Positions 7,432 through 63,040 of a stretch of DNA of 64,000 nucleotides are shown here, piece by piece. Within the stretch, counting starts at the first letter, position 1. The number at the start of each line of letters is the position of its first letter. This DNA is from Rheinheimera hassiensis. GTDB lineage: Bacteria; Pseudomonadota; Gammaproteobacteria; Enterobacterales; Alteromonadaceae. The stretch is taken from the NCBI RefSeq assembly GCF_022436675.1, contig NZ_JAKUJZ010000002.1, positions 1 to 64,000 on the forward strand, in the 5' to 3' direction. The notes beneath the pieces are model-generated. The model was given only the letters and a program-made list of their open reading frames with translations, was not told where the DNA came from and ran no database searches. Made by a program: the position numbers and the translations under genes.

Positions 7432-8808
7432 ATGCAAGTCGTAACACCCGTTCAGCCGCAGCATTCTGTCGCTGGCGCATTTTGGCGTTTTGCCATTCCG
7501 TCTATCGTGGCCATGTTAGTCAGCGGTTTGTATCAAATTATTGATGGCTTTTTTGTCGGCCACTTTGTTGGTGCCAGCGGGCTGGCAGGCATCAATATGG
7601 CAATACCACTGCTGGGTTTAATTATGGGCTTTGGTTTGCTGGTGGGTATGGGGGGCGGCAGTGTATTGTCTAAATACCGTGGCGAAAACAACCTGGCAGG
7701 CACCCAGGCAACACTGGTTACCGCGCTTGTGTTGGTGGTGTTAATTGGTTTATTCGCCACCCTGGTGTTTATTACCTTTGGTAAAAGCCTGCTAACGCTA
7801 CAAGGCGCAACCGGCATAACGATGGACATGAGCTGGAGCTATGTGCAGATCATGTCGTTTGGGGCGCTTATTTCCATTGGTGCCAGTGCCATGCCGATGC
7901 TGGTACGCAATGACGACAGCCCGAACCTGGCAACGGTATTTATTATCGTCGGTGCCTTAACGAATATTGCGCTGGACTACCTGTTTTTGGCCCATCTGGA
8001 TATGGGATTACAAGGCGCCGCTATCGCTACCTTAATTGCGCAGCTGGCCACCTGTGTGCTGTGCCTGCGGTATTTTATGTCGTCAAAAGCCAAAACCAAA
8101 CTGGCGATAAAGCAATGTGATAAAGCCATTGCCAGCCGTATTGTGCAGTTAGGTTCGTCAAATCTGGTGATGTTTATCTATTTCAGCTTTGTTATGGCGT
8201 TTCATAACAAGCAATTTATGGCCTATGGTGATACCACGCAATTGGCGGCCTTTGCAATTGTCGGTTATTTAGCCAGCTGTTACTACTTCTTTGCCGAGGG
8301 CTTGGTAAGCGGCTTGCAGCCGCCGGTAAGCTACTACTTAGGCGCCAAACAATACAAACGCATTACGCAAACGGTAAAACTGGCGTTTTCTGTCACTGTA
8401 GGCTCGGGTATTGCTATGGTGATACTGCTTAATCTTTTTCCGCAGCTGTTTATCGGCATTTTTACCAGCGGCAACGAGGCATTGCTTGAGGCAAGTAAAA
8501 ACGGTATCCGGCTGCATTTGATGGCACTGTTTTTAGATGGCTTCCTGTTTATGGCTGCTATTTACTTTGTTGCCGTTGGTAAGAGCGGCCAGGCGCTGTT
8601 TGTATCTCTGGGCAATATACTCATTCAGCTGCCATTTTTGTTTATTTTGCCGAAGTTCCTTGGCATTGATGGTGTTTGGCTGGCCGTGCCGTTATCCAAC
8701 ATCGCCTTTGTATTGATTGTACTGCCGATGCTATTGGTTAACCTCAAAGGCCTGATGCAACTGCATAAAAAGCAGAGCAATACAAATAGGCTTGTGGCTC
8801 ATTGCTAA
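7432..8808 (+). CDS. MATE-family multidrug/sodium efflux transporter
   Basis: 458 residues from ATG 7432; an in-frame ATG at 7399 would add 11 residues and neither has a clear ribosome site. Twelve hydrophobic helices form two MatE repeats: the first begins FAIPSIVAMLVSGLYQIIDG with FFVGHFVGASGLAGINMAIP, the second begins VQLGSSNLVMFIYFSFVMAF. MATE proteins export cationic drugs or metabolites using sodium or proton gradients. Expression is probably controlled by the divergent LysR regulator. The substrate cannot be inferred. Confidence 0.92.
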   Translation: MQVVTPVQPQHSVAGAFWRFAIPSIVAMLVSGLYQIIDGFFVGHFVGASGLAGINMAIPLLGLIMGFGLLVGMGGGSVLSKYRGENNLAGTQATLVTALVLVVLIGLFATLVFITFGKSLLTLQGATGITMDMSWSYVQIMSFGALISIGASAMPMLVRNDDSPNLATVFIIVGALTNIALDYLFLAHLDMGLQGAAIATLIAQLATCVLCLRYFMSSKAKTKLAIKQCDKAIASRIVQLGSSNLVMFIYFSFVMAFHNKQFMAYGDTTQLAAFAIVGYLASCYYFFAEGLVSGLQPPVSYYLGAKQYKRITQTVKLAFSVTVGSGIAMVILLNLFPQLFIGIFTSGNEALLEASKNGIRLHLMALFLDGFLFMAAIYFVAVGKSGQALFVSLGNILIQLPFLFILPKFLGIDGVWLAVPLSNIAFVLIVLPMLLVNLKGLMQLHKKQSNTNRLVAHC

Positions 8809-18836: not shown

Positions 18837-18858
18837 ATAGACAACTGTGCTGAATACT

Positions 18859-19002: not shown

Positions 19003-19020
19003 ATTGACACCGGTGTCAAT
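19003..19020. promoter_or_regulatory. CCGG-type LacI operator upstream of the first TonB receptor
   Basis: ATTGACACCGGTGTCAAT is a perfect 18-bp palindrome 47 bases before the receptor start. It contains TTGACA, which may double as a -35 element. The same core occurs at 52242-52257 and 57303-57318. Confidence 0.75.
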
Positions 19021-43850: not shown

Positions 43851-45350
43851 TCAGCGCATAGTCGGCATCGAGAACTGGTTAGTTGTTGCCTGGCCGGTAG
43901 GCCAGCGGGCGGTGATGGTTTTCATCCGGGTGTAAAAACGTACGCCGTCGGGGCCGTGCATATTGAGCGGGCCGAATACACTGCGCTTCCAGCCGCCAAA
44001 ACTATGAAATGCCATAGGTACCGGAATAGGCACGTTTACGCCGACCATACCCACTTGCACCTGGGCAGCAAATTCGCGCGCGGCTTCGCCACTGGCGGTA
44101 AAAATGGCGGTGCCGTTGCCAAATTCGTGCTCGTTAATCAGTTTAAGGCCGTCAGCAAAAGACGGCACCCGCACTACGGCTAGCACCGGGCCGAAGATTT
44201 CTTCTCGGTAAATGCGCATACCGGGCTTAACGTGATCAAACAGTGTTGGCCCAACGAAATAACCCTGCGGATGGTTGGCCACCTGCAGTTTGCGGCCATC
44301 GGCCAGCAAGGTAGCGCCTTCGGCGACGCCGGCATCAATGTAGCTGCGCACCTTATCGGCATGCGGCTGGCTAATCAGCGGGCCCATATGTGGCTCTGGC
44401 GAACCTGTGCCGGGGCCGGTTTGCAGGGTGGCAATTTCCTGTTGCAGGCGTTCTGTTAAGGCATCGGCAACATCGTCACCTACGCACAGTGCTACAGAAA
44501 TCGCCATACAGCGCTCACCGGCTGAGCCATAAGCGGCGCCCATCAGCGCACTGGTAACCTGGCCTAAATCGGCGTCGGGCATTACCAGCATATGGTTTTT
44601 AGCGCCGCCCAATGCCTGCACCCGTTTACCGTGCGCGCTGCCGGTGGCATAGACATATTCGGCAATCGGAGTTGAACCGACAAAGCTCACGGCCTGCACC
44701 CGTGAGTCGGTTAACAGCACATCTACTGCTTCTTTATCACCGTTAACCACGTTAAACACGCCTGCCGGTAAACCAGCCTCCAGCAGCAATTCTGCCAGAC
44801 GCAGCGGTACAGATGGGTCTTTTTCAGACGGTTTAAGAATAAAGCTATTACCGCAGGCCAGCGCGATAGGGAACATCCATAAAGGCACCATGGCCGGGAA
44901 GTTAAATGGCGTAATACCGGCACAAACGCCTAAGGGCTGCATCAGGCTGAAACTGTCGACACCGCGGCCGACATTCATCGAGTGCTCGCCTTTAAGCAGA
45001 TGCGGAATACCACAGGCAAATTCAACGACTTCCAACCCGCGGGTCAGCTCGCCCTGTGCATCAGAGAAGACCTTGCCATGCTCCTGGCTTATCAGTGTTG
45101 CCAGCTCGTCGCGGTGTTGCTCCAGCAAGGTTTTAAAGTTAAACATTACCCGGGCACGGTTAAGCGGGGTTACCTGGCTCCAGCTTTTAAAGGCGGTTTC
45201 TGCTACCGCTATAGCGCTGCGGGTTTCGTCGGCACTGGCCAGGCTAACCTGTGCCTGCGCTTCGCCGGTGGCCGGGTTATACACCGGCTGGCTGCGGCCG
45301 CTGTTGCTGGGCTGGTGCTGACCATTGATAAAATTACTTAGGGTTTTCAT
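43851..45350 (-). CDS. mmsA: Methylmalonate-semialdehyde dehydrogenase (acylating)
   Basis: 499 residues from ATG 45350, with AAGGA eight bases upstream; the frame extends further 5' into iolD and is trimmed. NAD-aldehyde dehydrogenase fold with GITPFNFPAMVPLWMFP, SFVGSTPIAEYVY (cofactor loop), ALGGAKNHMLVMPDAD and catalytic Cys in GSAGERCMAISV. This is the CoA-acylating MmsA/IolA group, last step of inositol breakdown (malonic semialdehyde to acetyl-CoA), also used in valine breakdown. Third gene of the iolC-iolD-mmsA run. Confidence 0.94.
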   Translation of the reverse strand: MKTLSNFINGQHQPSNSGRSQPVYNPATGEAQAQVSLASADETRSAIAVAETAFKSWSQVTPLNRARVMFNFKTLLEQHRDELATLISQEHGKVFSDAQGELTRGLEVVEFACGIPHLLKGEHSMNVGRGVDSFSLMQPLGVCAGITPFNFPAMVPLWMFPIALACGNSFILKPSEKDPSVPLRLAELLLEAGLPAGVFNVVNGDKEAVDVLLTDSRVQAVSFVGSTPIAEYVYATGSAHGKRVQALGGAKNHMLVMPDADLGQVTSALMGAAYGSAGERCMAISVALCVGDDVADALTERLQQEIATLQTGPGTGSPEPHMGPLISQPHADKVRSYIDAGVAEGATLLADGRKLQVANHPQGYFVGPTLFDHVKPGMRIYREEIFGPVLAVVRVPSFADGLKLINEHEFGNGTAIFTASGEAAREFAAQVQVGMVGVNVPIPVPMAFHSFGGWKRSVFGPLNMHGPDGVRFYTRMKTITARWPTGQATTNQFSMPTMR

Positions 45351-45366
45351 CGGTAAATCCTTGCTA

Positions 45367-47208
45367 TTAATACGGTTGTTGTTGCTGTTTACGCTGATAA
45401 TCCTCAAGTGCCTGCTGCACTGTGGCCTCGTTTGATACCTGTGGTATTGCCACATCCCACCAGGTGCTATTGTCGGTGCTTTGCTGTGGATCGGTTTTTA
45501 TTTCAATCAGGTAACTGCGCTTTGCCGCGCGGGCACGTTGCAGTGCCTGCTCCAGTGCGGCAATGTCGGCTACCCGTTCGCTTAGCGCGCCCAAGGCTTT
45601 GGCATGGGCTGCAAAGTCGATATCCGGCGCATCGGCTGCACAGTCGTCCCACAGGTTGTTAAAGGCGGCATTGCCGGTGCCGCGTTGCAGCCGGTTAATA
45701 CAGCCAAAACCACGGTTATCCAGCAGTACCACGATAATTTTTTGTTTTAGCAACACTGAGGTAGCCAGTTCAGAATTCAGCATCAGGTAGGAGCCGTCTC
45801 CCACCACCACTATGACTTCGCGTTCTGGCTGCGCCAGTTTTACACCGAGGCCACCGGCAATTTCGTAGCCCATACAGGAAAAACCATATTCAACGTGGTA
45901 GCTGCCGGGCCCCTCAGCGCGCCACAGTTTATGCAACTCGCCCGGCAAACCACCGGCAGCACAAACAATCACATCGCTTTTTGCCGACTGGCGTTTAACT
46001 GCGCCCAGCACCTGGGCATCGCTGGGCAATACTGCGCTGACGGGTGCTTTGGTCAGCTGGTCGTAACGCTGCTGCCATTGCTGGTTTAGCTGCTGGGCAT
46101 GCGCCAGCCAGCCGTTTTCGCTTTGCCAAAGGGGCAGTGCTTTATGCAGCTGCGTGAGCAGCAGGGCAGCATCACCCACCAGCGGTACGGCATGGTGTTT
46201 GGCGGCGTCAAAGGCAGCAATATTAAGCTGCAGCAGAGGTTTACCGGCAAAGCCGGTGCGGGACTGGGTGGTAAAATCCTGCAGGCGACTGCCGACAGCC
46301 AGAATAACATCGGCTTCGGCTGCCAGTTGGTTGGCGGCTGCTGAACCGGTAACGCCAATACCGCCGACGGCACAAGGATGCTGCCAGGGTAGGGCGCCTT
46401 TACCGGCCTGAGTTTCGGCAACCGGGATCTGATGCTGCTCAGCAAACTCGGCCAGTGCCCGGCATGCTCCGCTGTAATGAACGCCGCCTCCGGCAATAAT
46501 CAGTGGTTTGCGGGCCTTTAGTAACTGTATCAGCGCATCGGCCAGTTCATGTTCGTCGGCAGCGGGGCGGCGGATGCGGTGTACGCGTTTTGTAAACAGC
46601 GACGCGGGGTAATCAAAGGCTTCGGCCTGCACATCTTGCGGCAGTGCCAGTGTGACCGGGCCACAATTAACTGGATCAAGCAGGGTTTGTATCGCTACCG
46701 GTAAAGAGTGAATAAGCTGCTCTGGCCGGTTGATGCGATCAAAATAACGGCTAACCGGAATAAAGCAGTCGGTAGCGGCAATCATGGGGTTACTAAAGTT
46801 TTCAATTTGCTGCAACACCGGATCGGGTTTGCGGTTGGCAAAGTGATCACCGGCTAAAAACAGCACCGGTAAGCGGTTGGCATGGGCCAGGGCGGCGGCG
46901 GTAACCATATTGGTAGCGCCGGGGCCGACCGATGAGGTACAGGCCATTAGCCGCTGGCGGTTATTGGCTTTAGCAAAGGCGATGGCGGCATGTGCCATAC
47001 CCTGTTCGTTATGGGCGCGCAGCGTGGGTAACTGCTCACGTACCTGATACAACGCTTCCCCCAGGCCAGCCACATTACCGTGACCGAAAATAGCAAATAC
47101 GCCAGCAAATAGCGGTTTGGGCTCAGTGCTGTCTGGCGTGACGATATATTGCGCTGCCAGAAACTTTACCAGTGCCTGGGCGGCGGTTAAACGGATTTTG
47201 TCTGTCAT
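45367..47208 (-). CDS. iolD: 3D-(3,5/4)-trihydroxycyclohexane-1,2-dione hydrolase
   Basis: 613 residues. Thiamine-diphosphate enzyme with the N-terminal PYR domain (FAIFGHGNVAGLGEALY, LRAHNEQGMAHAAIAFAKA with the catalytic Glu) and the C-terminal PP domain (VVVGDGSYLMLNSELATSVL, VVLLDNRGFGCINRLQR). Length and motifs fit IolD, which hydrolytically opens the inositol-derived ring diketone to 5-deoxyglucuronate. AAGGA precedes the start, inside a run of short tandem repeats. Confidence 0.95.
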   Translation of the reverse strand: MTDKIRLTAAQALVKFLAAQYIVTPDSTEPKPLFAGVFAIFGHGNVAGLGEALYQVREQLPTLRAHNEQGMAHAAIAFAKANNRQRLMACTSSVGPGATNMVTAAALAHANRLPVLFLAGDHFANRKPDPVLQQIENFSNPMIAATDCFIPVSRYFDRINRPEQLIHSLPVAIQTLLDPVNCGPVTLALPQDVQAEAFDYPASLFTKRVHRIRRPAADEHELADALIQLLKARKPLIIAGGGVHYSGACRALAEFAEQHQIPVAETQAGKGALPWQHPCAVGGIGVTGSAAANQLAAEADVILAVGSRLQDFTTQSRTGFAGKPLLQLNIAAFDAAKHHAVPLVGDAALLLTQLHKALPLWQSENGWLAHAQQLNQQWQQRYDQLTKAPVSAVLPSDAQVLGAVKRQSAKSDVIVCAAGGLPGELHKLWRAEGPGSYHVEYGFSCMGYEIAGGLGVKLAQPEREVIVVVGDGSYLMLNSELATSVLLKQKIIVVLLDNRGFGCINRLQRGTGNAAFNNLWDDCAADAPDIDFAAHAKALGALSERVADIAALEQALQRARAAKRSYLIEIKTDPQQSTDNSTWWDVAIPQVSNEATVQQALEDYQRKQQQQPY

Positions 47209-47215
47209 TAAGTTT

Positions 47216-47275
47216 TTCCTTACGAGCTTAGTCCTTACGAGCCTCGTCGTTACGAGCTTAACTCTTACGCGCCAG
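47216..47275 (-). repeat. 15-bp imperfect tandem repeats between iolC and iolD
   Basis: About four units with the core TTACGAG at 15-base spacing span the iolC stop and the iolD leader. On the coding strand each unit reads CTCGTAAGGA or a variant, so the ribosome-binding sequence of iolD is repeated. Confidence 0.7.
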
Positions 47276-49165
47276 CCAGGCCTGGGTTAGCGCCCGGTAA
47301 TTGTGGCGGATTTGCTGCTGCAAGCCTGCATCATCCAGCTTGCCGGCCAGCCAGTCCTGACTGGCTTTGGCAAAAATAGTGCGGCCAATGGCAAAGCCGC
47401 GGCAAATCGGAAAAGCCGCGCTGTTGCGAAAGGCCTGCATCAATTCGTTAGCGGGGGCGTCCAGCCCCAGCAGTATCACGCCGCGGCAATGTGGTGACTC
47501 TTTGGCGATAAGCTCTGATACCAACTGCCAACCCGCCGGGCTTTGTGACGGAAGTTTCCACCAATCTGGCTTTATGCCTTGTTGATAAATCAGCTGCATG
47601 GCTTCAGCCACCGTGCTATCGCTGCAGGCCGAACCGGCCGGTGGGATCACTTCAAGCAGCAGTTCATGACCTGACACACAACAGGCCCGGTACAGTTCGT
47701 CCAGCTGGCGGCATTGTTGCTGCCAAAGTGCCGCTTCATCCTGCGGGTGCATAAACACCAGGCATTTAACAATATGCGAGCGCGGCCAACTGACTAAGCG
47801 TGAGCCGATAGAGCGGCCGCCTTCGAGTTCCAACGGGCGTGATGCCGGTACTTCAACCGGGCGGCCAATCCACCAGCCGGTGCCGGTAACATCGTTCAAT
47901 GCATCCTGGCCGAAGGTATCGTCAATCAGTACTCCGGCCTGCACCGGCAGTTGCTGCTGCGCAACTTCCTGCTGGTAAGCAGCAAGAATAAGTTGCTTTA
48001 ATTTAGGCAGGCGCGACAGCGGCGCCGCGGCAGCTTCGGCCATGTCGACAAACTGCTTGCGGTGATCAAAGGCCAGAATACAAAGTTCCGGCCAGCTGAC
48101 CGGGTAACGGGTGGTTACCCGGTGCAGGTAGTTCAGTTGTGGATCAAGATCCGGCCGGCTAATGTTGTGTTGCTGCGCCAGATAATAATCCAGCTCTTCC
48201 GGCGTGGGTATGGCAGGGGCGCAGCCATGGCGCGACACCACTAAAGCACCACAGGCATTGGCGCAGGCACAGCAGCGTTCGTAACTTTCATCGCGCAGCC
48301 AGCCGCGTAAAAAGCCGGCCATAAAAGCATCGCCGGCACCTAATACATTTAATACCTCTACCTGCACGCCCTGGGCAAAAAAGGCATCGTCCAGCGAGTT
48401 GGGGATCTGGCCTTCAAAAATGCTGCAGCCCTGAGCGCCACGTTTTAGCACGATAACGGCGTCAGTGAGCTGGCGCAGCGTTTTTAAACAGGCGATGGTA
48501 TCGGTGCTGCCACCGGCGATATGCACCTCTTCTTCGGTGCCGACAATTAAATCGCACAGCGGCACTATAGATTGCAGATGGGCGGTGACATTGTCATTGG
48601 ACACAAAGCGGTTGTCGCCTTCGCCGGGCCGCGCCAGGCCCCACAGTACCGGCCGGTAGTCGATATCCAGAATTACTTTAGTCTGGTTGCGGCGGGCATA
48701 ATTGATAGCGTGGCGCGCCACCTTATCAACATGGACAGTAGAAAAGTGGGTGCCGGTGATCAACAGCGCTTTGCTGGAGGCGATATAGGCCTCGTCAAAA
48801 TCGCTGACATCAATAGCCATATCAGCGCAGTCGGCCCGGTAAAACAACAGCGGAAACTGCTGTTTGGTTTTAATCGACAAAATTGCCAGCGCGGTTAGCC
48901 GCTCTGGATCGGTAACCACATGGCTGGTATCACAGCCGGCGCGGGCCAGTTCTTCGCGGATAAACTGGCCGAACTGTTCGTCGCCAACCCGGGTAAGCAT
49001 TGAGGCTTTAAGCCCTAAGCGGGCGGCGCCAAAGGCGATATTACATGACGAACCGCCAAGCGATTTGGCAAAAGAAGCGATATCCTGCAACCGGTCGCCA
49101 ATTTGCTGGCCGTACAAATCAACTGAGGCCCGGCCTAAACAGATGACATCCAGAGTTTTATTCAC
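47258..49165 (-). CDS. iolC: 5-dehydro-2-deoxygluconokinase fused to DUF2090 domain
   Basis: 635 residues. Residues 1-325 are a PfkB kinase: ICLGRASVDLYGQQIGDRL, SLGGSSCNIAFGAARLGL and the motif NVLGAGDAFMAGFLRGWL with catalytic Asp. Residues about 340-635 are the DUF2090 domain, an aldolase-like barrel (LCILAFDHRKQFVDMAE, VKCLVFMHPQD, GVILLGLDAPANELMQAF) often fused to IolC in proteobacteria. The kinase phosphorylates 5-dehydro-2-deoxygluconate; the second domain may be the aldolase of the next step (inference). First gene of the minus-strand iol run. Confidence 0.93.
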   Translation of the reverse strand: MNKTLDVICLGRASVDLYGQQIGDRLQDIASFAKSLGGSSCNIAFGAARLGLKASMLTRVGDEQFGQFIREELARAGCDTSHVVTDPERLTALAILSIKTKQQFPLLFYRADCADMAIDVSDFDEAYIASSKALLITGTHFSTVHVDKVARHAINYARRNQTKVILDIDYRPVLWGLARPGEGDNRFVSNDNVTAHLQSIVPLCDLIVGTEEEVHIAGGSTDTIACLKTLRQLTDAVIVLKRGAQGCSIFEGQIPNSLDDAFFAQGVQVEVLNVLGAGDAFMAGFLRGWLRDESYERCCACANACGALVVSRHGCAPAIPTPEELDYYLAQQHNISRPDLDPQLNYLHRVTTRYPVSWPELCILAFDHRKQFVDMAEAAAAPLSRLPKLKQLILAAYQQEVAQQQLPVQAGVLIDDTFGQDALNDVTGTGWWIGRPVEVPASRPLELEGGRSIGSRLVSWPRSHIVKCLVFMHPQDEAALWQQQCRQLDELYRACCVSGHELLLEVIPPAGSACSDSTVAEAMQLIYQQGIKPDWWKLPSQSPAGWQLVSELIAKESPHCRGVILLGLDAPANELMQAFRNSAAFPICRGFAIGRTIFAKASQDWLAGKLDDAGLQQQIRHNYRALTQAWLARKS

Positions 49166-49213
49166 ACCACATCTCCCAAGAATTTTTCTGGTGAGGAAAT
49201 AATCAACCTAGAT

Positions 49214-49229
49214 TAGAATGAATTTTCTA
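49214..49229. promoter_or_regulatory. Possible IolR-type operator
   Basis: TAGAATGAATTTTCTA has inverted TAGAA/TTCTA arms separated by six bases, the spacing reported for rhizobial IolR (GGAA-N6-TTCC type). It lies 49 bases upstream of iolC in the gap divergent with the RpiR gene. Confidence 0.4.
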
Positions 49230-49307
49230 TTTATACAATACTTGGAATATTTGTTTTATTGAGTTAGACTCGATTCATCAGCAAATCGCCGTCACAGAGG
49301 TAACAGG

Positions 49308-50165
49308 GTGGAAGCACCGGTGTGTAATAGCCAGCAGGAACTGGAACAACTAATTGAGCAACGTTTTCAGCTGCTGAGTAACCGGCTGCAGCTGGTTGCG
49401 CGTTATTTGCTGGCGCACCCCGACACTGTTGCCTTTGGCACTACAGCAACCATTGCGCAAGGTGCTGGTGTGCATGCCTCGGCGTTGGTGCGTTTTGCTA
49501 ATGCTTTTGGTTTTTCTGGTTTTACTGAAATGCAAAAGCTGTTTAAAAACCGTTTGCTGCAAACCAGCCCGGATTACCAAAGCCGCATAGTGGCTGTGCA
49601 GCAGGACCAGTCTGTACCGGTGACTCAAGCCGGGGTGCGTTATTTGCAGCAAATTGCCGCGGCAAATGAAGCGGCTATGGTGCAGTTGTGTGATGAGCTG
49701 GACGCTGGCTTATTGCAACAAGCCTGCGAGCTGCTGGCCAAAGCCCGGCTTATTCATATACAGGGCGCAAGACGCTCTTACCCGGTAGCCAGTTACGCCG
49801 GTTATTTGCTAAGCAATACCGGTTTGCCGGTGCATTTGCTCGATGGTGTAGGTTATATGCAAACCGGCCCGCTGAATTTACTCGGTGCCGATGACGTGCT
49901 GCTAGCCATCAGTTTTGCGCCTTACGCGGCAGAAACCCAGCAGGTAATCAGCCGGGCGGCGGCAGCGGGTTGCCGCATTATTGTGATTACCGATCACCGG
50001 TTAAGCCCTTTAACCGCGCAGGCTGACGTTGCCCTGCTGGTACGCGAAGCCGAAGTGCATTCGTTTCGGTCATTAAATGCCAGCATGAGCCTGATCCAGG
50101 CCCTGGTGCTGGCGCTTATTCACGATGCTGAAGCTCTGGCTGCAGCAGCAAAACCTGCCGGCTAA
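49308..50165 (+). CDS. iolR: MurR/RpiR-family regulator of inositol genes (IolR-like)
   Basis: 285 residues from GTG 49308 (GAGG upstream). N-terminal RpiR helix-turn-helix at about 30-75 (VARYLLAHPDTVAFGTTATI, then AQGAGVHASALVRFANAFGF) and a SIS domain (LIHIQGARRSYPVASYAGYLLS, VLLAISFAPYAAETQQVI, IIVITDHRLSPL). It is divergent from iolC and directly upstream of iolB. RpiR-type IolR proteins repress inositol genes in many proteobacteria. Confidence 0.87.
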   Translation: MEAPVCNSQQELEQLIEQRFQLLSNRLQLVARYLLAHPDTVAFGTTATIAQGAGVHASALVRFANAFGFSGFTEMQKLFKNRLLQTSPDYQSRIVAVQQDQSVPVTQAGVRYLQQIAAANEAAMVQLCDELDAGLLQQACELLAKARLIHIQGARRSYPVASYAGYLLSNTGLPVHLLDGVGYMQTGPLNLLGADDVLLAISFAPYAAETQQVISRAAAAGCRIIVITDHRLSPLTAQADVALLVREAEVHSFRSLNASMSLIQALVLALIHDAEALAAAAKPAG

Positions 50166-50175
50166 GGAGCTCACT

Positions 50176-50982
50176 ATGTCCTATTTACACCGTAAACCTA
50201 TGGCGGCTGATGCCAGCGGTGTGATTCAGCATATTACACCGCAAAACGCCCATTGGGATTACGTGGGTTTTGATGTAGTGCTACTTAAACCGGGCCAGAG
50301 TGCAAAGTTTATCAGCGGCCACAGCACCGAGCTGTGCGCTGTGCTGTTATCCGGCCGCGCTGATTTAGCCACGCTGGAACAGCGTTTTACCAGCGTTGGG
50401 GCACGTAACAGCGTATTTGATGCTGTGCCACCTTATGCACTGTATTTACCGCCGGGCGAAACACTTACGGTAACTGCGATCACAGAGTTGGAACTGGCAC
50501 TTTGCCGGGCACCGGCGCAGGGGGGGTTGCCGGTACGGCTTATTACGCCGGATGACTGTGTGCAGGAAACCCGTGGCCAGGGCACTAATACCCGCCAGGT
50601 ATGTAATATTTTATTTGGCAATTTACCGGCTGAGCGGCTGCTGATTACTGAAGTGATTACGCCGCCGGGACACTGGTCGAGCTATCCGCCGCATAAGCAT
50701 GATACCGATGCTATTCCACAGGAAAGTGCATTGGAAGAAACCTACTACCATAAGCTTAACCCCAGCCAGGGCTTTGCCTTTCAGCGGGTGTATACCGATG
50801 ATCGGCGTATAGATGAAACCATTTGCGTAGAGCATAACAGCGTGGTGCTGGTGCCGGAAGGCTATCATCCGGTTGGCGCACCGCACGGTTACGAGCTGTA
50901 TTATCTGAATGTGATGGCGGGCCCAAGCCGGCAGTGGGTGTTTAAAAATGATCCGCAACATGAATGGATCATAAAAAAATGA
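50176..50982 (+). CDS. iolB: 5-deoxy-glucuronate isomerase
   Basis: 268 residues from ATG 50176, with AAGGAG at 50164-50169; the longer frame overlaps the regulator. Bicupin fold. The metal site is in SSYPPHKHDTDAIPQESALEETYYHK, with the HKHD and Glu pattern of IolB, plus VPEGYHPVGAPHGYELYYLNVMAG. It converts 5-deoxyglucuronate to 5-dehydro-2-deoxygluconate, the substrate of IolC. Ends 32 bases from the convergent LacI gene. Confidence 0.94.
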   Translation: MSYLHRKPMAADASGVIQHITPQNAHWDYVGFDVVLLKPGQSAKFISGHSTELCAVLLSGRADLATLEQRFTSVGARNSVFDAVPPYALYLPPGETLTVTAITELELALCRAPAQGGLPVRLITPDDCVQETRGQGTNTRQVCNILFGNLPAERLLITEVITPPGHWSSYPPHKHDTDAIPQESALEETYYHKLNPSQGFAFQRVYTDDRRIDETICVEHNSVVLVPEGYHPVGAPHGYELYYLNVMAGPSRQWVFKNDPQHEWIIKK

Positions 50983-51014: not shown

Positions 51015-52037
51015 TCACCGGCCAGGTTGGCTGGTCGATTCCCGTACGATCAGTTCGCAGTCAAATATATCCGCGCCGCCGTCATTGCCCGCTGCCGTTT
51101 CGCCTTTAAGTTTTTTAATCAGTTTAAACGCCGCCCGGTAACCAATGGCATTAATGGGTTGGCGCATCGACGTCAGGTTTGGCCACACTTTGGTGGTAAG
51201 CGAGATATCGTCAATACCACAAACCGACAGCTCTTCCGGTATTTTGATACCGCGACGGTGAGCTTCGTACAATACACCCACCGCCATTTCATCGTTGGCC
51301 GCCAAAATAGCGGTAGGGCGGGGCGTGCGGCTAAGCAGTGTGGCAGCGGCGTCTACGCCCGACTGATGCGTGTAATAGCCTTGCACAACCAGCTGTTCAT
51401 TCAGCGTGATACCGGCATCGGCGATGGCATTACGAAAGCCCCTTTCACAGCGGTGGCTGGATTCCTGATCCGGATGGCCCAGCACAAAAGCAATGTCTTT
51501 GTGGTGCAGGCGCAGCAGATATTGCGTCATCTCGTAAGCGGCTTTGACACCGTTAAAACTTACGCAATCGCCACTGTCCTGATCTTTAGGCCCAATGCGG
51601 ATATAGCGCACCCTTTTGCGCTGCAGCATGTCCAGCAGGTCTTGCTTGTCGCTAAGCGGCGGCACCAGGATCAGGCCATCGGCCAGGGTGTTATCAATAA
51701 ATTCTTCAATTTCATACACCAATGTTGGCGAGCGGTAATTGCAGTCGTAAAGAAACAGCCCCATATGTTCTTCGCTACAGCATTGCAGAATGCCTTTTTG
51801 CAGTTTTTGCAAATAGCCGGGGCTGGGGTTGTCGGCCAGCAAGGCAATAAACAGCGAACGGTTTTTGGCCAGTGCCATACCCAGTGGGTTGCGCTTAAAC
51901 CCCAGTTGGTGAATAACTGCCATCACCTTAGTGCGGGTTTCTTCCGACACATTAATTTCATTGTTGATCACGCGCGACACGGTTTTTTTCGATACACCGG
52001 CATGACGCGCCACATCGTTAATGGTTACTGATGACAT
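51015..52037 (-). CDS. LacI-family regulator, probable owner of the CCGG operators
   Basis: 340 residues from ATG 52037 (MSSVTINDVARHAGVSKKTVSRVINNE). An upstream extension of 52 residues has no family likeness and is trimmed. HTH, hinge helix (LGFKRNPLGMALAKNRS) and effector domain (LADGLILVPPLSDK, IAFVLGHPDQES, PTAILAANDEMAVGVL) are complete. A perfect 38-bp palindrome lies about 190 bases upstream and also drives the divergent thuA pair, so autoregulation is likely. The helix-turn-helix differs from the other LacI at VSKK versus VSFK, in line with a different operator centre. Confidence 0.88.
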   Translation of the reverse strand: MSSVTINDVARHAGVSKKTVSRVINNEINVSEETRTKVMAVIHQLGFKRNPLGMALAKNRSLFIALLADNPSPGYLQKLQKGILQCCSEEHMGLFLYDCNYRSPTLVYEIEEFIDNTLADGLILVPPLSDKQDLLDMLQRKRVRYIRIGPKDQDSGDCVSFNGVKAAYEMTQYLLRLHHKDIAFVLGHPDQESSHRCERGFRNAIADAGITLNEQLVVQGYYTHQSGVDAAATLLSRTPRPTAILAANDEMAVGVLYEAHRRGIKIPEELSVCGIDDISLTTKVWPNLTSMRQPINAIGYRAAFKLIKKLKGETAAGNDGGADIFDCELIVRESTSQPGR

Positions 52038-52230
52038 GTTTTGGCAACACCTCTGTTCTGGAGCAAGCAAATGAATACTACTTAGCCTTAAGCCGTAATA
52101 AGTTGCCGGTATAACTGCACCACCCTGTCTCTGGTGGTTAAATTGGCACAGGCTACTGCGCTGTATATTCTGGCGGGTAAAACCCGCTGGCACAGTGACT
52201 TATTGCGGTCAGCTTGACAAAGGTTCTAGC

Positions 52231-52268
52231 TATAATGCAAATTGACACCGGTGTCAATTTGCATTATA
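52231..52268. promoter_or_regulatory. 38-bp perfect palindrome: LacI operator with overlapping divergent promoters
   Basis: The left arm 52231-52249 (TATAATGCAAATTGACACC) is the exact reverse complement of 52250-52268. On the plus strand TTGACA (52242-52247), a 17-base spacer and TATAAA (52265-52270) form a near-consensus sigma-70 promoter. On the minus strand TTGACA (52257-52252) with 17 bases to TATAGC serves the LacI gene. The centre is TTGACACCGGTGTCAA. Confidence 0.82.
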
Positions 52269-52341
52269 AAATTTATTATTGCCAATAGCCCGGCTGGTCT
52301 GTTGCTATTGGGTTTATTTATGCTTGGCAGGAGTACTTTTG

Positions 52342-53001
52342 GTGACTGAAGTTGACCCTATTAAACAGGCCAGCCCACAGCTGCTGCATGGTGCCTATAC
52401 AGCTTTGGCCTATGCCGGAACGCTGGCTGGTTACAGTTATGTGCATCAGGCGCTGGCTAATCCGCTGTTTGCCCGTTATCTACAGCATTTATTGCACTAT
52501 GAACTGGCAACGGCACCCATGCTGGCGGATACCGCAGCCGTGCTGCAGCAACTGGCCACAGTGGCGGACGAAAAAAGTTTACTGCAACTTACGCAAAACG
52601 GTTCACAGCAATTATTGCCCGGGATTCTGGCCACTGCAGAGCAGCGGCTGGCAACCGGGCAGGGCATTGAGGCGTTGTGTTTTACTCTGGCAGCCTGGCT
52701 GCGCTTTAGCATGGGGTTTGATGCTAAAGGCGATACGCTGGATGTGATTGATCCGTTGGCTGAGCGCTTGATGCAAATACGGCTGCAGCACTGGGATCAT
52801 ATCGACGAGCTGGTTGCACAGTATCTGCTGGTTACTCCGCTGTTTTCAGCTACGCTGCGCGACAATGCAGTGTTTCGCGACCGGCTAACCTACTGGCTAA
52901 GTTATATTTTGGCAAACGGCGTGGTAACGGCGCTGCAAACTTTAGTTTTGGAAGTGCAGGATTACTCAGCTGCGCCGCGTTTAGCCGGAGGACAAGTATG
53001 A
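52342..53001 (+). CDS. Mannitol-dehydrogenase C-terminal domain homologue without Rossmann domain
   Basis: 219 residues from GTG 52342, which has AGGAG eight bases upstream. A TTG at 52279 lies at the predicted transcript start and is unlikely. The whole protein matches the C-terminal helical domain of the mannitol dehydrogenase/fructuronate reductase family: LLHGAYTALAYAGTLAGYSYVHQALANP, NGSQQLLPGILATAEQRL, ALCFTLAAWLRFSMGFDAKGD and DVIDPLAERLMQ. No NAD-binding half exists upstream. In active members the catalytic set is K-x4-N-x2-H; here the aligned residues are Ser, His and Tyr. It overlaps thuA by four bases, so it is expressed and probably not an enzyme. Confidence 0.8.
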   Translation: MTEVDPIKQASPQLLHGAYTALAYAGTLAGYSYVHQALANPLFARYLQHLLHYELATAPMLADTAAVLQQLATVADEKSLLQLTQNGSQQLLPGILATAEQRLATGQGIEALCFTLAAWLRFSMGFDAKGDTLDVIDPLAERLMQIRLQHWDHIDELVAQYLLVTPLFSATLRDNAVFRDRLTYWLSYILANGVVTALQTLVLEVQDYSAAPRLAGGQV

Positions 53002-53801
53002 TTAAGGTTACGGTGTGGAATGAGTGCCGTCATGAAAAAGAAGACGCCGACGTGCAGGAAGTGTACCCCGAGACGATTGGTGGCTGTATTGTCGATAATT
53101 TAGCGCCCTACGGTTTTGATTTAACGCTGGCAACCTTAGACGACCCTGAACAAGGCTGGCCGGCAGAGCGTATTGAGCAAACTGAAGTGGCGATTTGGTG
53201 GGGCCACAGATACCACGATGAGCTGAGCGATGCACTGATTGATCAATTACAGGCGCGGGTATTGGCCGGTATGGGCTTGATAGTGCTACACAGCGGCCAT
53301 CATGCCAAGTTATTTAAACGGCTGATGGGCACCAGTTGTAACCTGAGCTGGCGTGAGGCAGAAGGCGGCGAACGGGAGCGGGTGTGGTGTCTGAAACCGT
53401 CGCATCCTATTGCTTATAATATTCCACCGCAAATTGAGCTGCCACAGTCAGAAATGTACGGTGAGCCTTTTGATATCCCTGAGCCGGACGAGCTGATTTT
53501 TAACTCCTGGTATCAGGGCGGTGAAGTACTGCGCAGTGGCTGTACCTTTCAGCGTGGGCGCGGGCGGATTTTTTTCTTCTCACCGGGACATGAAACCTTC
53601 CCGATTTACCGCAACCCACATATTATCCAAATTCTGGCCAATGCCATTCAGTGGGCGCATCAGCCGCATCAAAGTGGCTGGATGCTGGGCAACTGGGGCC
53701 GGCCGGTGCCATTGGAAGAGGGGGCACCGAAACAAACTTACTTTAAAAAGCCGCGTAAGTTGATGCTGGCGGAGAAGGCTGCGAAGAAGGCAGAAAAATA
53801 G
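52998..53801 (+). CDS. thuA: ThuA-family protein
   Basis: 267 residues, ATG overlapping the previous stop (ATGA). Glutamine-amidotransferase-like ThuA fold: IKVTVWNECRHEKEDADVQEVYP at the N-terminus, EVAIWWGHRYHDELSDALI, GMGLIVLHSGHHAKLFKRLMGT, MYGEPFDIPEPDELIFNSWY and GRIFFFSPGHETFPIYRNP. ThuA proteins act with Gfo/Idh/MocA oxidoreductases in trehalose and other 3-keto-sugar pathways, although the exact reaction is poorly defined. An oxidoreductase with the same operator type lies 2.3 kb downstream. Confidence 0.88.
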   Translation: MIKVTVWNECRHEKEDADVQEVYPETIGGCIVDNLAPYGFDLTLATLDDPEQGWPAERIEQTEVAIWWGHRYHDELSDALIDQLQARVLAGMGLIVLHSGHHAKLFKRLMGTSCNLSWREAEGGERERVWCLKPSHPIAYNIPPQIELPQSEMYGEPFDIPEPDELIFNSWYQGGEVLRSGCTFQRGRGRIFFFSPGHETFPIYRNPHIIQILANAIQWAHQPHQSGWMLGNWGRPVPLEEGAPKQTYFKKPRKLMLAEKAAKKAEK

Positions 53802-54216: not shown

Positions 54217-55170
54217 ATGGCGATAAAGATTTCCATAATTAACTTCAAGGGTGGGGTGGGTAAAACAACTCTTGCCTTTCATCTTGCTACTCATCTCGCC
54301 GAAAAAGCGAAGGTCTTGGTTGTAGACATTGACCATCAATCTAGCATGTCCATAGCTCTACTCGGAGGTACATTGTGGGAAGAATGCAGGAACTCCGGAA
54401 AGACGTGTAACCGAATTTTTGAGTCTTTCTGTAACCGAAAAATATCTATGCCGGGTCCAGAGATTATCATTGGTAATGTTCTCCATCAAAGACAGCCTAA
54501 TTACAATCTCTATCCAAACCTTGATCTTTTGCCTGCTCAATTTGAACTGGACGACACTGAAATCGAGATGGCATCCACTACGATGGGAGGACCTACGGTC
54601 TCTGAGTGGACGAAGAGGACATTGTTGGCGGAATGGCTAGACGCAGTAGAAGCAAACACGAAATACGACTATATCGTTTTTGACTGTCCTCCGGCGACTA
54701 AGCTGGTAAGCCAAAATGCTCTCGCTGCAAGCGACTACTTTGTAATACCTGTGATACCAGACGAGTTATCGAGTCGAGGCGTTACTCACTTCAAGAATCT
54801 GGTCACCGAAAAAATCGATAAGAAACTCGCTTTTCTTAAAGATGCGGCAGGCATTACTGCAAACGATGTCCCCAAAGCCTTCGTTCCAACAACTAAATTA
54901 GCTGGCATTGTTCCATTCATGGCAAAGACTGCCGGGAATGCTGCTTCTGGGCTAACTAATATACATACCGAGCAAATTGCAGCACTGAGAAAACAATGGA
55001 AAAGTGATGTCCTTAAATCTGTTGTGAAGCACTTAACAGGTGTTCCAGAATCAATAAATGCTGGTTGGCCGGTATGGAACCAGCAAGGCATCCAGGCAAA
55101 CGTATCGGATCAGGTTGTAAGTATGATGCAAGAAGTTTGTGTCGAAATTGAAAGCAGGATAAAGCAGTGA
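54217..55170 (+). CDS. ParA/Soj-type partition ATPase
   Basis: 317 residues from ATG 54217. Deviant Walker A KGGVGKTTLAFHLATHLA starts near residue 11, with both lysines of the ParA family. Walker A' is VLVVDIDHQSSMSIALLGG. Walker B is YDYIVFDCPPATKLVSQNAL, followed by YFVIPVIPDELSSRGVTHF. No N-terminal DNA-binding extension, as in Soj-type and McdA-type proteins. Such ATPases position cargo on the nucleoid through a small partner. The next gene overlaps by four bases and is the probable partner. No ParB-like protein is nearby. Codon style and low GC differ from flanking catabolic genes. Confidence 0.9.
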   Translation: MAIKISIINFKGGVGKTTLAFHLATHLAEKAKVLVVDIDHQSSMSIALLGGTLWEECRNSGKTCNRIFESFCNRKISMPGPEIIIGNVLHQRQPNYNLYPNLDLLPAQFELDDTEIEMASTTMGGPTVSEWTKRTLLAEWLDAVEANTKYDYIVFDCPPATKLVSQNALAASDYFVIPVIPDELSSRGVTHFKNLVTEKIDKKLAFLKDAAGITANDVPKAFVPTTKLAGIVPFMAKTAGNAASGLTNIHTEQIAALRKQWKSDVLKSVVKHLTGVPESINAGWPVWNQQGIQANVSDQVVSMMQEVCVEIESRIKQ

Positions 55171-55628
55171 AAAGCAGAGAAGTTAAAAATGATGAGATCA
55201 GACCGAATTTTCAACAGTTGGTCAAATCAGTTAACAACACTTTGCGAGGATTACAAATCGCTGATGCTGATCCTGCGCTGCTATTAGCCTATCAGAAGTT
55301 GCTTGACCATCTGAATAGTTGCAACCCAGAGCTTTTAAATCAAATATTCGGCTCATCTTTCTCTGCGAAACGAGAGGCTCGGAGAGCTCGAATCAGCATG
55401 TCGGATAGCGAGATTCATAAACTCAGCAATGAGGATTTAGAAAAACTTTTGGCTTTGGAAGATTCTACAAAAGTGCAGCTGGCTAAAATTGCTGAAATTC
55501 GATTCAGTGTCACAAAAGGGACTATTTCAAAACTATCGAAGGAGGCATTGCGCTTAAAACTTCAGAATCTTATTGATAACGAGAAAACACACCAAGCAAT
55601 AGGAAGGGTCGCACGTAGTTCAAGTTGA
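55167..55628 (+). CDS. Putative partner of the ParA ATPase, unknown family
   Basis: 153 residues, ATGA overlap with the ATPase gene. It is highly charged and mostly helical, with no signal or membrane segment. An N-terminal basic stretch (MKSREVKNDEIRPNFQQLVK) could stimulate ATPase activity, as the basic N-termini of ParB-like partners do. A middle segment has AKREARRARISMSDSEIHKLSNEDLEKLLALED, and the end is ISKLSKEALRLKLQNLIDNEKTHQAIGRVA. No helix-turn-helix or ParB motif is seen. The function is unknown; coupling to ParA is the main evidence for its role. Confidence 0.7.
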   Translation: MKSREVKNDEIRPNFQQLVKSVNNTLRGLQIADADPALLLAYQKLLDHLNSCNPELLNQIFGSSFSAKREARRARISMSDSEIHKLSNEDLEKLLALEDSTKVQLAKIAEIRFSVTKGTISKLSKEALRLKLQNLIDNEKTHQAIGRVARSSS

Positions 55629-56140: not shown

Positions 56141-57130
56141 TTATAGCGTTACCGGCACGCCATGCTGGCTGGCGGATAATTTTATCGCATCCCATAACTG
56201 GGCCATGCGCAGGCCTTGTTGGACGTCGGATGGGTTTTCTATTTCGCCGTTACGACTTTGCATAAATACATTCATCAGGTTGTTGGCGGCTTCTTGATCT
56301 TTACGTACCACGTTACCCTGTGCATCCTCTATTTCCATCCAGCGGCCCCAGGCGCAAATGCGCACTATGGCTTGTGGGAAGAAGCACTCGATACGGGATA
56401 CACAGCGGATGCTGCGGCCGCAGGCATGCAGGTTAAACAGGGTGCCGTCATTTAATTCGCCTGAAACGCTTGTCACTACATCCACCGGAAAGCCGTGGTT
56501 ATGCATAATGGCGCTGATGCGGGAGAAGGGTTTACTGGTGATTTTAGATACCGTGTTCATCATATGGGCGCCGGTATCAAACATAAAACCGCCGCCGGAA
56601 ATTTCAGGTACTTGTTTCCAGTGGCCTTGGTATTTGTCGGCCCAGTCTTCCCAAATTGCTGCATTAATGCTAACTAAAGCGCCGTATTTTTGGTTGGCAA
56701 TGGCATCTTTCAGCTCTTGCACCAGCGGTGATAAACCGCCCTGATAAGCCACCACCAGAGTTTTAGCGGATTTTTGCTGTGCAGCCGCTAAAGCTTCAGC
56801 TTCAGCCACACTGGTTACCATAGGTTTTTCCAGCAGTACGTCCAACCCTAACTCCAGCGCCAGCAAGGCTTGTTCGGCGTGATTGGCATGCGGAGTACAG
56901 ATATAGACGGCATCCAGTTGCTGGTGCTGGTCTTTTAACAACGTTTGCCAGCTATCAAAACAGAGTGGGGCAGTTTTGCCTGCTTCAGCTGCGATGTGGC
57001 AGACGTTGTCCATGGCTTTACCATTGGGGTCCATCACGCCAAGCAACTGAATATCAGAACGCACTATCCAGGTTTGAATATATTGAGTGGCTTTGGTGCC
57101 ACAGCCGATAATTGCCAGTTTTAATTCCAC
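56141..57130 (-). CDS. Gfo/Idh/MocA-family oxidoreductase
   Basis: 329 residues from GTG 57130, which has GGGAG six bases upstream; the longer frame from 57193 adds residues with no family match. Rossmann start KLAIIGCGTKATQYI, then AVYICTPHANHAEQALLALELGLDVLLEKPMV with the catalytic Lys of EKP. The substrate domain has GGGFMFDTGAHMMNTVS, containing the D-x-x-x-H pair. Members oxidise sugar or inositol hydroxyls. The shared CCGG operator and the ThuA gene upstream point to a keto-sugar pathway; inositol dehydrogenase is possible but unproven. Confidence 0.87.
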   Translation of the reverse strand: MELKLAIIGCGTKATQYIQTWIVRSDIQLLGVMDPNGKAMDNVCHIAAEAGKTAPLCFDSWQTLLKDQHQQLDAVYICTPHANHAEQALLALELGLDVLLEKPMVTSVAEAEALAAAQQKSAKTLVVAYQGGLSPLVQELKDAIANQKYGALVSINAAIWEDWADKYQGHWKQVPEISGGGFMFDTGAHMMNTVSKITSKPFSRISAIMHNHGFPVDVVTSVSGELNDGTLFNLHACGRSIRCVSRIECFFPQAIVRICAWGRWMEIEDAQGNVVRKDQEAANNLMNVFMQSRNGEIENPSDVQQGLRMAQLWDAIKLSASQHGVPVTL

Positions 57131-57300
57131 TTCGCTCTCCCAGATGCTGCAAGGATAGTTGCCATTGCACGGCAGCATCATTTTGTCGTGCATTGCTGAT
57201 CAAATTCTGCGCTTTATGCATTAGCCTGCAACACCTGTTGTTACACAATCTGCCTTAGATTAGTGCGCTTTGCTATGCCTAACTGCACCATTAAATTGCA

Positions 57301-57330
57301 TATTGACACCGGTGTCAATAAGCGTATTAT
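57301..57330. promoter_or_regulatory. CCGG-type LacI operator with divergent promoters
   Basis: TATTGACACCGGTGTCAATA (57301-57320) is a perfect 20-bp palindrome. On the plus strand TTGACA (57303-57308), a 16-base spacer and TATTAT (57325-57330) face the ABC operon. On the minus strand TTGACA with 17 bases to TTTAAT (57295-57290) faces the oxidoreductase. The rest of the 316-base gap 57131-57446 shows nothing else. Confidence 0.78.
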
Positions 57331-61773: not shown

Positions 61774-62631
61774 TTATCTGTCGTGATACAGCTCACAGGC
61801 TTCCAGTGTATTCTCAACTAAACTGGCCACCGTCATCGGGCCTACACCGCCTGGCACCGGAGTGATATAGCGCGCATGCTTTACCGCTGCGCCGTATTCC
61901 ACATCGCCTACCAGTTTACCGCTGTCCAGCCGGTTAATACCCACATCAATAACCAGGGCGCCCGGTTTTACCCAGTCGCCCGGAATAAATTCCGGCCGGC
62001 CTACAGCTACAACCAGCAAATCAGCACGGCGTACCTGCGCTTCCAGGTTTTTGGTAAATTTGTGGCAAACCGTTGTAGTACAACCTGCCAGTAATAGCTC
62101 CAGCGCCATTGGCCGGCCAACAATGTTGGAGGCACCCACGACAACTGCATCCATACCTTTTACATTAACACCGGTGCTTTGCAGCAGTGTCATAATGCCT
62201 TTAGGCGTGCAGGAGCGCAGCGCTGGCATGCGCTGGGCTAAACGTCCAATATTGTATGGGTGAAAGCCGTCGACGTCTTTGTGCGGGTTTATGCGCTCTA
62301 AAATGGCGGATGAATCTAAGCCGGCAGGTAACGGCAGCTGCACCAGAATACCGTCTACAGTGTTGTCGTTATTTAATTTATCAATTAATTCCAGCAGCTG
62401 TTGTTCAGTGGTATCAGAGGGTAAGTCGTAAGATACAGAATGAAAGCCAACTTCTTCACAAGCCTTGCGCTTGCTGCCTACATAAACCTGGGACGCCGGG
62501 TTTACCCCTACCAGCACTACGGCTAAGCCCGGTGCTCTTTTACCTGCTGCAACCCGGGCGCGAACCTGAGCGGCAACTTTATCTTTTGTTGCCTGGGCAA
62601 CGGCTTTGCCATCAATAATTTGTGCTGTCAT
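61774..62631 (-). CDS. folD: Methylene-THF dehydrogenase/cyclohydrolase
   Basis: 285 residues from ATG 62631 ([16 protein letters not shown]). The open frame continues upstream to 62991 through the tRNA-Pro and is not real coding. Motifs: [15 protein letters not shown] (Tyr and catalytic Lys), [50 protein letters not shown] (NADP site) and [17 protein letters not shown]. Bifunctional enzyme of one-carbon metabolism. Housekeeping gene; marks the end of the accessory region. Confidence 0.97.
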
Positions 62632-62820
62632 TTGCTTACGTCTCTGCCATGATTTTACTGTGTTATATTTTCGCACAGCTACCAGCAGAACTCCATCCTG
62701 CAATGGGCACGGCACAATAGGTTCAAATAATAGGCAATCAGTTGATTTGTGCAAAAAAAGGTTTGACGCTATTGCTGGGCGGCTGTAATATTCCGCCCCG
62801 TTGCAGCAGTGCAGCAAAGT

Positions 62821-62897
62821 CGGTGATTGGCGCAGCTTGGTAGCGCACTTGGTTTGGGTCCAAGGGGTCGCAGGTTCAAATCCTGCATCACCGACCA
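62821..62897 (+). tRNA. tRNA-Pro (anticodon TGG)
   Basis: 77 bases with encoded CCA. Acceptor CGGTGAT pairs with ATCACCG; anticodon loop TTTGGGT gives TGG; T arm GCAGG-TTCAAAT-CCTGC. Identical to the copy at 63164. Confidence 0.97.
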
Positions 62898-62963
62898 ATT
62901 TTAAAATGGTTTGGTATACAACATACCTGTCATTAAATTTATAGCTTGGTAGGGCTTCGATTT

Positions 62964-63040
<77 letters not shown>

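Follow-up and report, generated by a model that had tools for sequence, protein, structure and literature searches.

A gene that encodes only the C-terminal domain of a mannitol dehydrogenase-type enzyme, placed directly in front of thuA, raises the question of whether it is the remnant of a lost enzyme or a protein kept for another role. We addressed this question for a 64,000-nt stretch of DNA from Rheinheimera hassiensis (NZ_JAKUJZ010000002.1, positions 1 to 64,000; hereafter the window). An earlier note, made from the sequence of the window, had proposed that the gene is not debris and that its product is a non-catalytic subunit that binds a polyol or keto sugar and acts with ThuA. Many sugar-catabolic clusters include a protein of the ThuA type, whose exact function is, to our knowledge, poorly established. 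It is known that pseudoenzymes can be retained as accessory or scaffold proteins. A full-text search of the open-licence literature found no paper title pointing to this pair of a stand-alone C-domain and thuA.

Results

The window gene encodes a C-terminal domain without the catalytic residues

The gene (52342-53001, + strand) starts with GTG and has 219 codons followed by TGA. Its sole Pfam match at E <=1 is Mannitol_dh_C (PF08125; residues 13-184), with a score of 62.4 bits against a cut-off of 30.7, and no N-terminal NAD-binding Rossmann domain (PF01232) was found in the protein; the profile search thus bears out the earlier description of a C-terminal domain lacking the Rossmann half. The fructuronate reductase/mannitol dehydrogenase family (polyol-specific long-chain dehydrogenases with PF01232 and PF08125, such as 4im7, 1lj8 and 7rk4) has the C-terminal helical domain in common with the window protein, but the latter lacks the Rossmann domain, the catalytic Lys/Asn/His and the substrate Lys, and has 219 amino acids instead of 492-523. 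In the phmmer alignment with 1lj8, Lys295, Asn300 and His303 are replaced with Ser, His and Tyr, exactly as had been read by eye, and Lys381 of the GSxK loop (1lj8 numbering) is replaced with Gln. We take the roles of the catalytic Lys/Asn/His and of the substrate Lys to be those known from work on the Pseudomonas enzyme. With the whole set lost, the protein is expected to be non-catalytic, as the note had held.

The best NCBIfam model for the gene is NF011611, at 57 bits, far below its curated cut-off of 603. A structure model of the protein, built from seven sequences, was of moderate quality (mean pLDDT 64.9), with block means of 64-89 for residues 91-200, 66 for residues 201-210 and 31-68 for residues 1-90. 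Used as a Foldseek query, it matched six chains at E <0.001, all mannitol dehydrogenases apart from a fructuronate reductase, with E values of 4e-7 to 1e-5.

Relatives carry a full-length reductase at the same locus

A scan of genome contigs gave six relatives with the corresponding locus, L033-L038: a gammaproteobacterial MAG (L033), Rheinheimera pacifica BIGb0367 (L034), two further Rheinheimera strains (L035 and L036), a MAG (L037) and Alteromonas lipotrueae (L038). Several of these also have a genome label used below (G014 is L034, G029 is L033, G626 is L035, G501 is L036 and G715 is L037); L059 is the same record as L035, and L038 is a further full-length genome beyond the 14 of the family survey. 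L033 and L034 carry the same stand-alone gene as the window (92% and 84% identical, respectively), with Ser, His, Tyr and Gln at the catalytic and GSxK positions in all three. In L035, L036, L037 and L038, the interval from the LacI regulator gene to thuA encodes a protein of 507-523 amino acids in which the whole catalytic set is retained. A gene of 476-484 codons precedes the full-length reductase in L035, L036 and L038. In L036, Pfam identified this gene as uxaC and found both the Rossmann and the C-terminal domain in the reductase; the preceding gene of L035 encodes a protein 96% like L036 UxaC, and that of L038 was assigned by its first residues only. We call the enzyme a putative fructuronate reductase on two grounds: among NCBIfam models, the window gene scores best against NF011611, and uxaC neighbours the full-length gene.

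When a full-length relative was compared with the window region by tblastn, the single significant match covered residues 278-505 of the relative, and no significant match to remnants of uxaC or of the N-terminal domain was detected in window positions 51901-53100. Because relatives keep the full-length gene at the same locus, the window gene can be regarded as what remained after loss of uxaC and the enzyme half, and the comparison shows a gene that evidently arose by deletion. The earlier note had taken an intact N-terminal domain in close relatives at this locus as the mark of a deletion remnant: such relatives do exist, but the shortened gene is conserved outside the strain.

At least one copy of uxaC is present in all 14 genomes with this ThuA. 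All five truncated genomes have one uxaC elsewhere, close to a full-length reductase gene; in the genome of the window, these other UxaC and reductase proteins share 61% and 42% identity, respectively, with those of L036. Since the truncated genomes keep both genes elsewhere, the lost activities are probably backed up.

The start signals align to codons of the old gene, behind a probable shared operator

The ribosome-binding site ascribed to the gene in the earlier note was confirmed at 52329-52333 (+ strand; AGGAG, 8 nt before GTG). It aligns gap-free to Ala-Gly-Val codons within the full-length gene: the boundary reads GCA GGA GTA CTT TTG/GTG in the window and GCC GGA GTG ATG CTG/GTG in L036. 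Because these codons align gap-free, the ribosome-binding site and the start codon would have been nearly pre-existing inside the old gene. In the full-length reductase gene of L036, GGAG and an in-frame GTG with 8-nt spacing are found exactly at the domain boundary (7989-8003). They occur at the same place in L059, L061 and L062 and are absent from L063, L065, L066 and L067. In these four close relatives, the boundary GGAG and GTG are a possible internal start, and the full-length gene may also make a short form.

The note had also given the gene its own promoter. A TTGACA-17-TATAAA pair can be read directly from the sequence (52242-52270, + strand), but this exact pair was absent from the list of a consensus promoter scan, which demands T at the last position of the -10 hexamer; the scan returned four other matches, compared with a mean of 2.7 in shuffled sequence. 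Because the scan missed the pair and its other matches were near the shuffled mean, we treat the promoter as putative.

The promoter-like pair lies within a perfect 38-bp palindrome (52231-52268), likely the operator of the divergent LacI-type regulator. Within the 4.7-Mb genome (78 contigs), its core, TGACACCGGTGTCA, is found exactly three times, always in the window: before the stand-alone gene (52242-52257), before the TonB-dependent receptor gene that starts at 19068 (19004-19019), and between the gfo/idh and ABC transporter genes (57303-57318). A degenerate copy is present at 18858. The three perfect sites define a putative small LacI regulon of the TonB receptor gene, the stand-alone gene with thuA, and gfo/idh with the ABC importer genes. 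L035 and L036 have the identical full palindrome in front of uxaC, and the core is located upstream of the reductase gene or the stand-alone gene in all 14 loci of the family.

The stand-alone form was seen only at this locus and may have arisen twice

We examined 395 genomes of the family, an even sample of the larger group, with a ThuA threshold of E <=1e-40. This ThuA was found in 14 of them, and in every case the C-domain was encoded directly upstream. The window's genome, G014 and G029 (three species) have the stand-alone form; G086 and G637 have a second, more diverged one. The recurrence of stand-alone C-domain and thuA pairs that the earlier note had looked to a neighbourhood survey to reveal was thus found, with the same residues lost in the window, L033 and L034. 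In the G086 and G637 proteins, PF08125 scores about 27 bits, below the cut-off, with about the second half of the model matching; in the alignment, the Lys column is gapped, Asn is replaced with Ser and the GSxK Lys with Arg, and the His column is kept.

The other nine loci have the full-length gene, with uxaC in seven. In G715 (L063) and G649 (L068), the full-length reductase is kept without uxaC at the locus, a possible intermediate to the stand-alone C-domain. The stop-start overlap with thuA was 4 nt in 12 of the 14 loci by script, and in 13 counting G637, in which the thuA frame (L064, 9112-9936) starts at an upstream ATG, giving a short N-terminal extension with the 4-nt overlap kept. 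In G649, a 113-nt gap separates the reductase gene from thuA, and the reductase is without the last residues of the tail.

Outside the family, none of 25 unlinked ThuA loci had a match to this reductase at E 1e-5 in flanks of up to 1.5 kb. Among 398 genomes of the phylum (151 with a match), the PF08125 frames were all at least 387 amino acids long among the matches listed. A stand-alone C-domain as a common architecture is thereby ruled out among these matches; it was seen only at this locus. Two further PF08125-type matches in G030 (L012 and L030) are 238-aa frames on partial loci, probably genes cut by contig ends rather than stand-alone genes.

The two stand-alone groups fall apart in a tree of the cluster proteins; uniting them costs 14 log units and is marginally rejected (AU p 0.0488), and 12% of bootstrap trees from the larger gene set unite them. 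A single origin was not rejected with a smaller gene set (AU p 0.144) or with the C-domain alone (AU p 0.279). G086 and G637 share a genus code with the full-length genomes G501, G589, G626, G687 and G715, which points to two truncation events. Two events therefore appear more likely than one.

The stand-alone gene is under purifying selection

We estimated dN/dS by the Nei-Gojobori method with bootstrap 95% intervals. Among the genes of the window, L033 and L034, the ratios were 0.145, 0.159 and 0.150 (intervals within 0.075-0.258), and that between the stand-alone genes of G086 and G637 was 0.152 (0.091-0.238). For the 45 codons upstream of the start in the latter pair, the ratio was 1.27, on nine changes only. 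In neutral simulations with the observed transition bias (3 x 1000 runs), the median ratio was 0.73-0.75, the 0.1% point lay at 0.35-0.47, and the frame stayed open in 0-0.5% of the runs. For scale, the ratios within the window's clade were 0.007-0.013 for ThuA, 0.025-0.042 for LacI and about 0.07 for Gfo/Idh; those between G086 and G637 were 0.046, 0.046 and 0.037, respectively; and those of the C-domain of full-length genes were 0.035-0.076. By these measures, the stand-alone gene appears relaxed relative to its neighbours, yet clearly selected as a protein. With the frame open in five genomes and ratios of 0.145-0.159, the proposal that the gene is not debris gains support.

Homology to an enzyme, absence of the catalytic residues and purifying selection come together in the window gene. 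Like known pseudoenzymes, it has lost catalytic residues and encodes a protein still under selection; it differs from them in that the whole cofactor domain is lost and the C-terminal part alone is retained. That it is a real, selected, non-catalytic enzyme derivative, a pseudoenzyme made by domain loss, is well supported by these comparisons.

Conservation in the window's clade lies mainly in the C-terminal subdomain and tail

Substitution ratios, block identities and pLDDT together delimit a strongly conserved C-terminal subdomain and tail at codons 96-208 (52627-52965, + strand). In the two pairs that contain R. pacifica, dN/dS was 0.078-0.081 for these codons, with high dS (0.73-0.85), versus 0.29-0.32 for codons 2-95. 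Between G086 and G637, the ratio was 0.191 in the first part, where alignment to the enzyme is barely possible, versus 0.128 in the later part; the gradient of the window's clade is not general, because the first part of the G086/G637 form is also under selection.

The block identities turned over between the enzyme and its derivatives. Residues 191-208 of the tail are 87% identical among the nine full-length linked enzymes and 13% identical between these and 12 other members of the family; to the full-length proteins, the window form is 78% and the G086/G637 form 59% identical in this block. For the active-site block (residues 1-20), the corresponding values are 83%, 64%, 41% and 20%. This turnover suggests that the part common to the enzymes decayed and the part specific to the thuA-linked branch was kept in both stand-alone forms. 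Binding of a polyol or keto sugar is not supported by this pattern, the active-site blocks being the least conserved.

ThuA and the neighbouring genes

thuA (52998-53801, + strand) encodes 267 amino acids with a full-length match to PF06283 (99.9 bits, profile positions 1-209 of 209), and phmmer aligned the product to the ThuA-like protein 1t0b with E 1.4e-90. The gene overlaps the preceding stand-alone gene by the 4 nt ATGA, as noted earlier, and its GGAGG site (52987-52991, + strand) lies inside the end of that gene. Linked ThuAs have a C-terminal extension, read from the sequence ends, which in the window runs from NWGRP to PRKLM (53691-53765, + strand). It is present with small changes in 14 of 14 ThuAs linked to this C-domain and absent in 25 of 25 unlinked ones, among which that of L075 has a partial, divergent NWHRA. 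Both the C-domain protein and the linked ThuA therefore carry lineage-specific tails. Because the linked ThuAs look like one clade, the shared extension may reflect one event rather than independent evidence. That the stand-alone protein acts with ThuA is plausible.

The divergent LacI-family regulator gene (51015-52037, - strand; Pfam LacI and Peripla_BP_3) and a Gfo/Idh/MocA oxidoreductase gene (56141-57193, - strand; PF01408) belong to the same cluster. The latter lies downstream of thuA in 13 of the 14 family loci, with a distance that varies between them, and in G626 only in a wider stretch. By these counts, LacI and Gfo/Idh appear about as well linked to the stand-alone gene as ThuA. A ParA-like ATPase gene and a small gene are found between thuA and gfo/idh (54217-55628); this interval is a variable insertion point, because L033 has different genes there and L034 none. 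A folD-type tetrahydrofolate dehydrogenase/cyclohydrolase gene (61774-62991) follows the ABC transporter genes in the window, G014 and G029, and was not found in the available stretches of the other relatives' loci.

Directly adjoining the thuA cluster (43851-50982) are inositol-catabolism-type genes and the gene for an RpiR-type regulator. The genes there include one for an aldehyde dehydrogenase, recognized by Pfam, and others that we take from their sequences to be iolD, iolC and iolB; iolC, iolB and the regulator gene are present in 11 of the 14 loci. These genes may hint at an inositol glycoside as the substrate. The cluster is predicted to combine an uptake route with ThuA and Gfo/Idh. 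In both this cluster and the thuEFGKAB system, ThuA is encoded together with a Gfo/Idh protein and an ABC sugar importer; this cluster differs in that the gene for the reductase or the stand-alone C-domain overlaps thuA and in that ThuA has the extra conserved C-terminal extension. Published work connects ThuA-ThuB pairs with 3-keto sugars (PMC4765114). The thuEFGKAB system serves the assimilation of 3-keto glycosides in rhizobia and Agrobacterium.

Discussion

We propose that the window gene encodes a non-catalytic accessory protein freed from a reductase with two jobs, most likely as a partner of ThuA; we put the probability of this explanation at about 45%. By comparison, relatives carry operator, uxaC, full-length reductase gene and thuA in this order, whereas in the window uxaC and the NAD-binding half have been lost, and the boundary GTG and the Ala-Gly-Val codons have taken on the roles of start codon and ribosome-binding site. 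In this branch, the C-terminal subdomain and tail of the reductase may have served a second job. Reduction of fructuronate by this enzyme would have become redundant given the other uxaC and full-length reductase gene in each truncated genome, and because of the second job the tail would have been preserved as an accessory protein that stands alone and has no catalytic activity. The likeliest job would be binding ThuA, made adjacent by coupled translation, either stabilising it or holding a complex. The imported glycoside would be the substrate of ThuA together with the Gfo/Idh protein, by analogy with the action proposed for ThuA and ThuB. In a bolder version, the C-terminal ~110 residues of this reductase branch would be a dedicated ThuA subunit, and the enzyme half would have been lost independently in two lineages, each time at the domain boundary; we consider this possible but doubtful.

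The protein may instead be selected and non-catalytic but work alone, or with a partner other than ThuA: the Gfo/Idh protein, the LacI regulator or the paralogous full-length reductase. The LacI and Gfo/Idh genes are found as regularly as thuA, and the three operator sites join the TonB receptor, stand-alone-thuA and ABC/Gfo genes in one putative regulon; thuA, however, is the only one of these genes to overlap the stand-alone gene, and 13 of the 14 loci retain this overlap, so that we judge such a role unlikely, though deserving real weight. That same overlap, and the position of the window's thuA ribosome-binding site inside the stand-alone gene, would also be expected if translation of the open frame, not the protein, were kept, for the translation of thuA and the avoidance of transcription termination. 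Such a need would not lower dN/dS to 0.15 overall and to 0.08 in codons 96-208 at high dS, and the deletion could equally have fused the promoter directly to thuA; this makes the explanation quite improbable.

If selection acted solely to prevent the toxic misfolding of a fragment that is well expressed but useless, this would account for uneven substitution and for constraint weaker than in the neighbouring genes. The conservation is sequence-specific, with the tail 78% and 59% identical to full-length orthologues, which goes beyond fold-compatible character and renders this account very improbable. Still less probable is the polyol or keto-sugar binding subunit acting with ThuA, despite the derivation of the domain from a sugar-acid reductase: the window's form has other residues in place of Lys295, Asn300, His303 and Lys381, and in G086 and G637 the domain cannot be aligned over most of its first half. 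A pseudogene in decay would fit the origin by deletion and the fast decay of the active-site block. It is rejected by the substitution ratios and the neutral simulation, since dN/dS lies below the neutral 0.1% point in four of four comparisons and the frame is open in five genomes, and it can be considered close to refuted.

The locus is a clean example, possibly in duplicate, of a domain that was released from its enzyme and then retained by selection, and living relatives show possible intermediates: the full operon, the operon without uxaC, and the locus with neither uxaC nor the enzyme half. If the C-terminal part is indeed a ThuA subunit, the reductase would be a two-job protein, of which the ThuA-binding half survived as a separate gene. 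One branch of ThuA is accompanied by a small protein that has outlived its own enzyme, and this protein offers a direct way to learn what ThuA needs.
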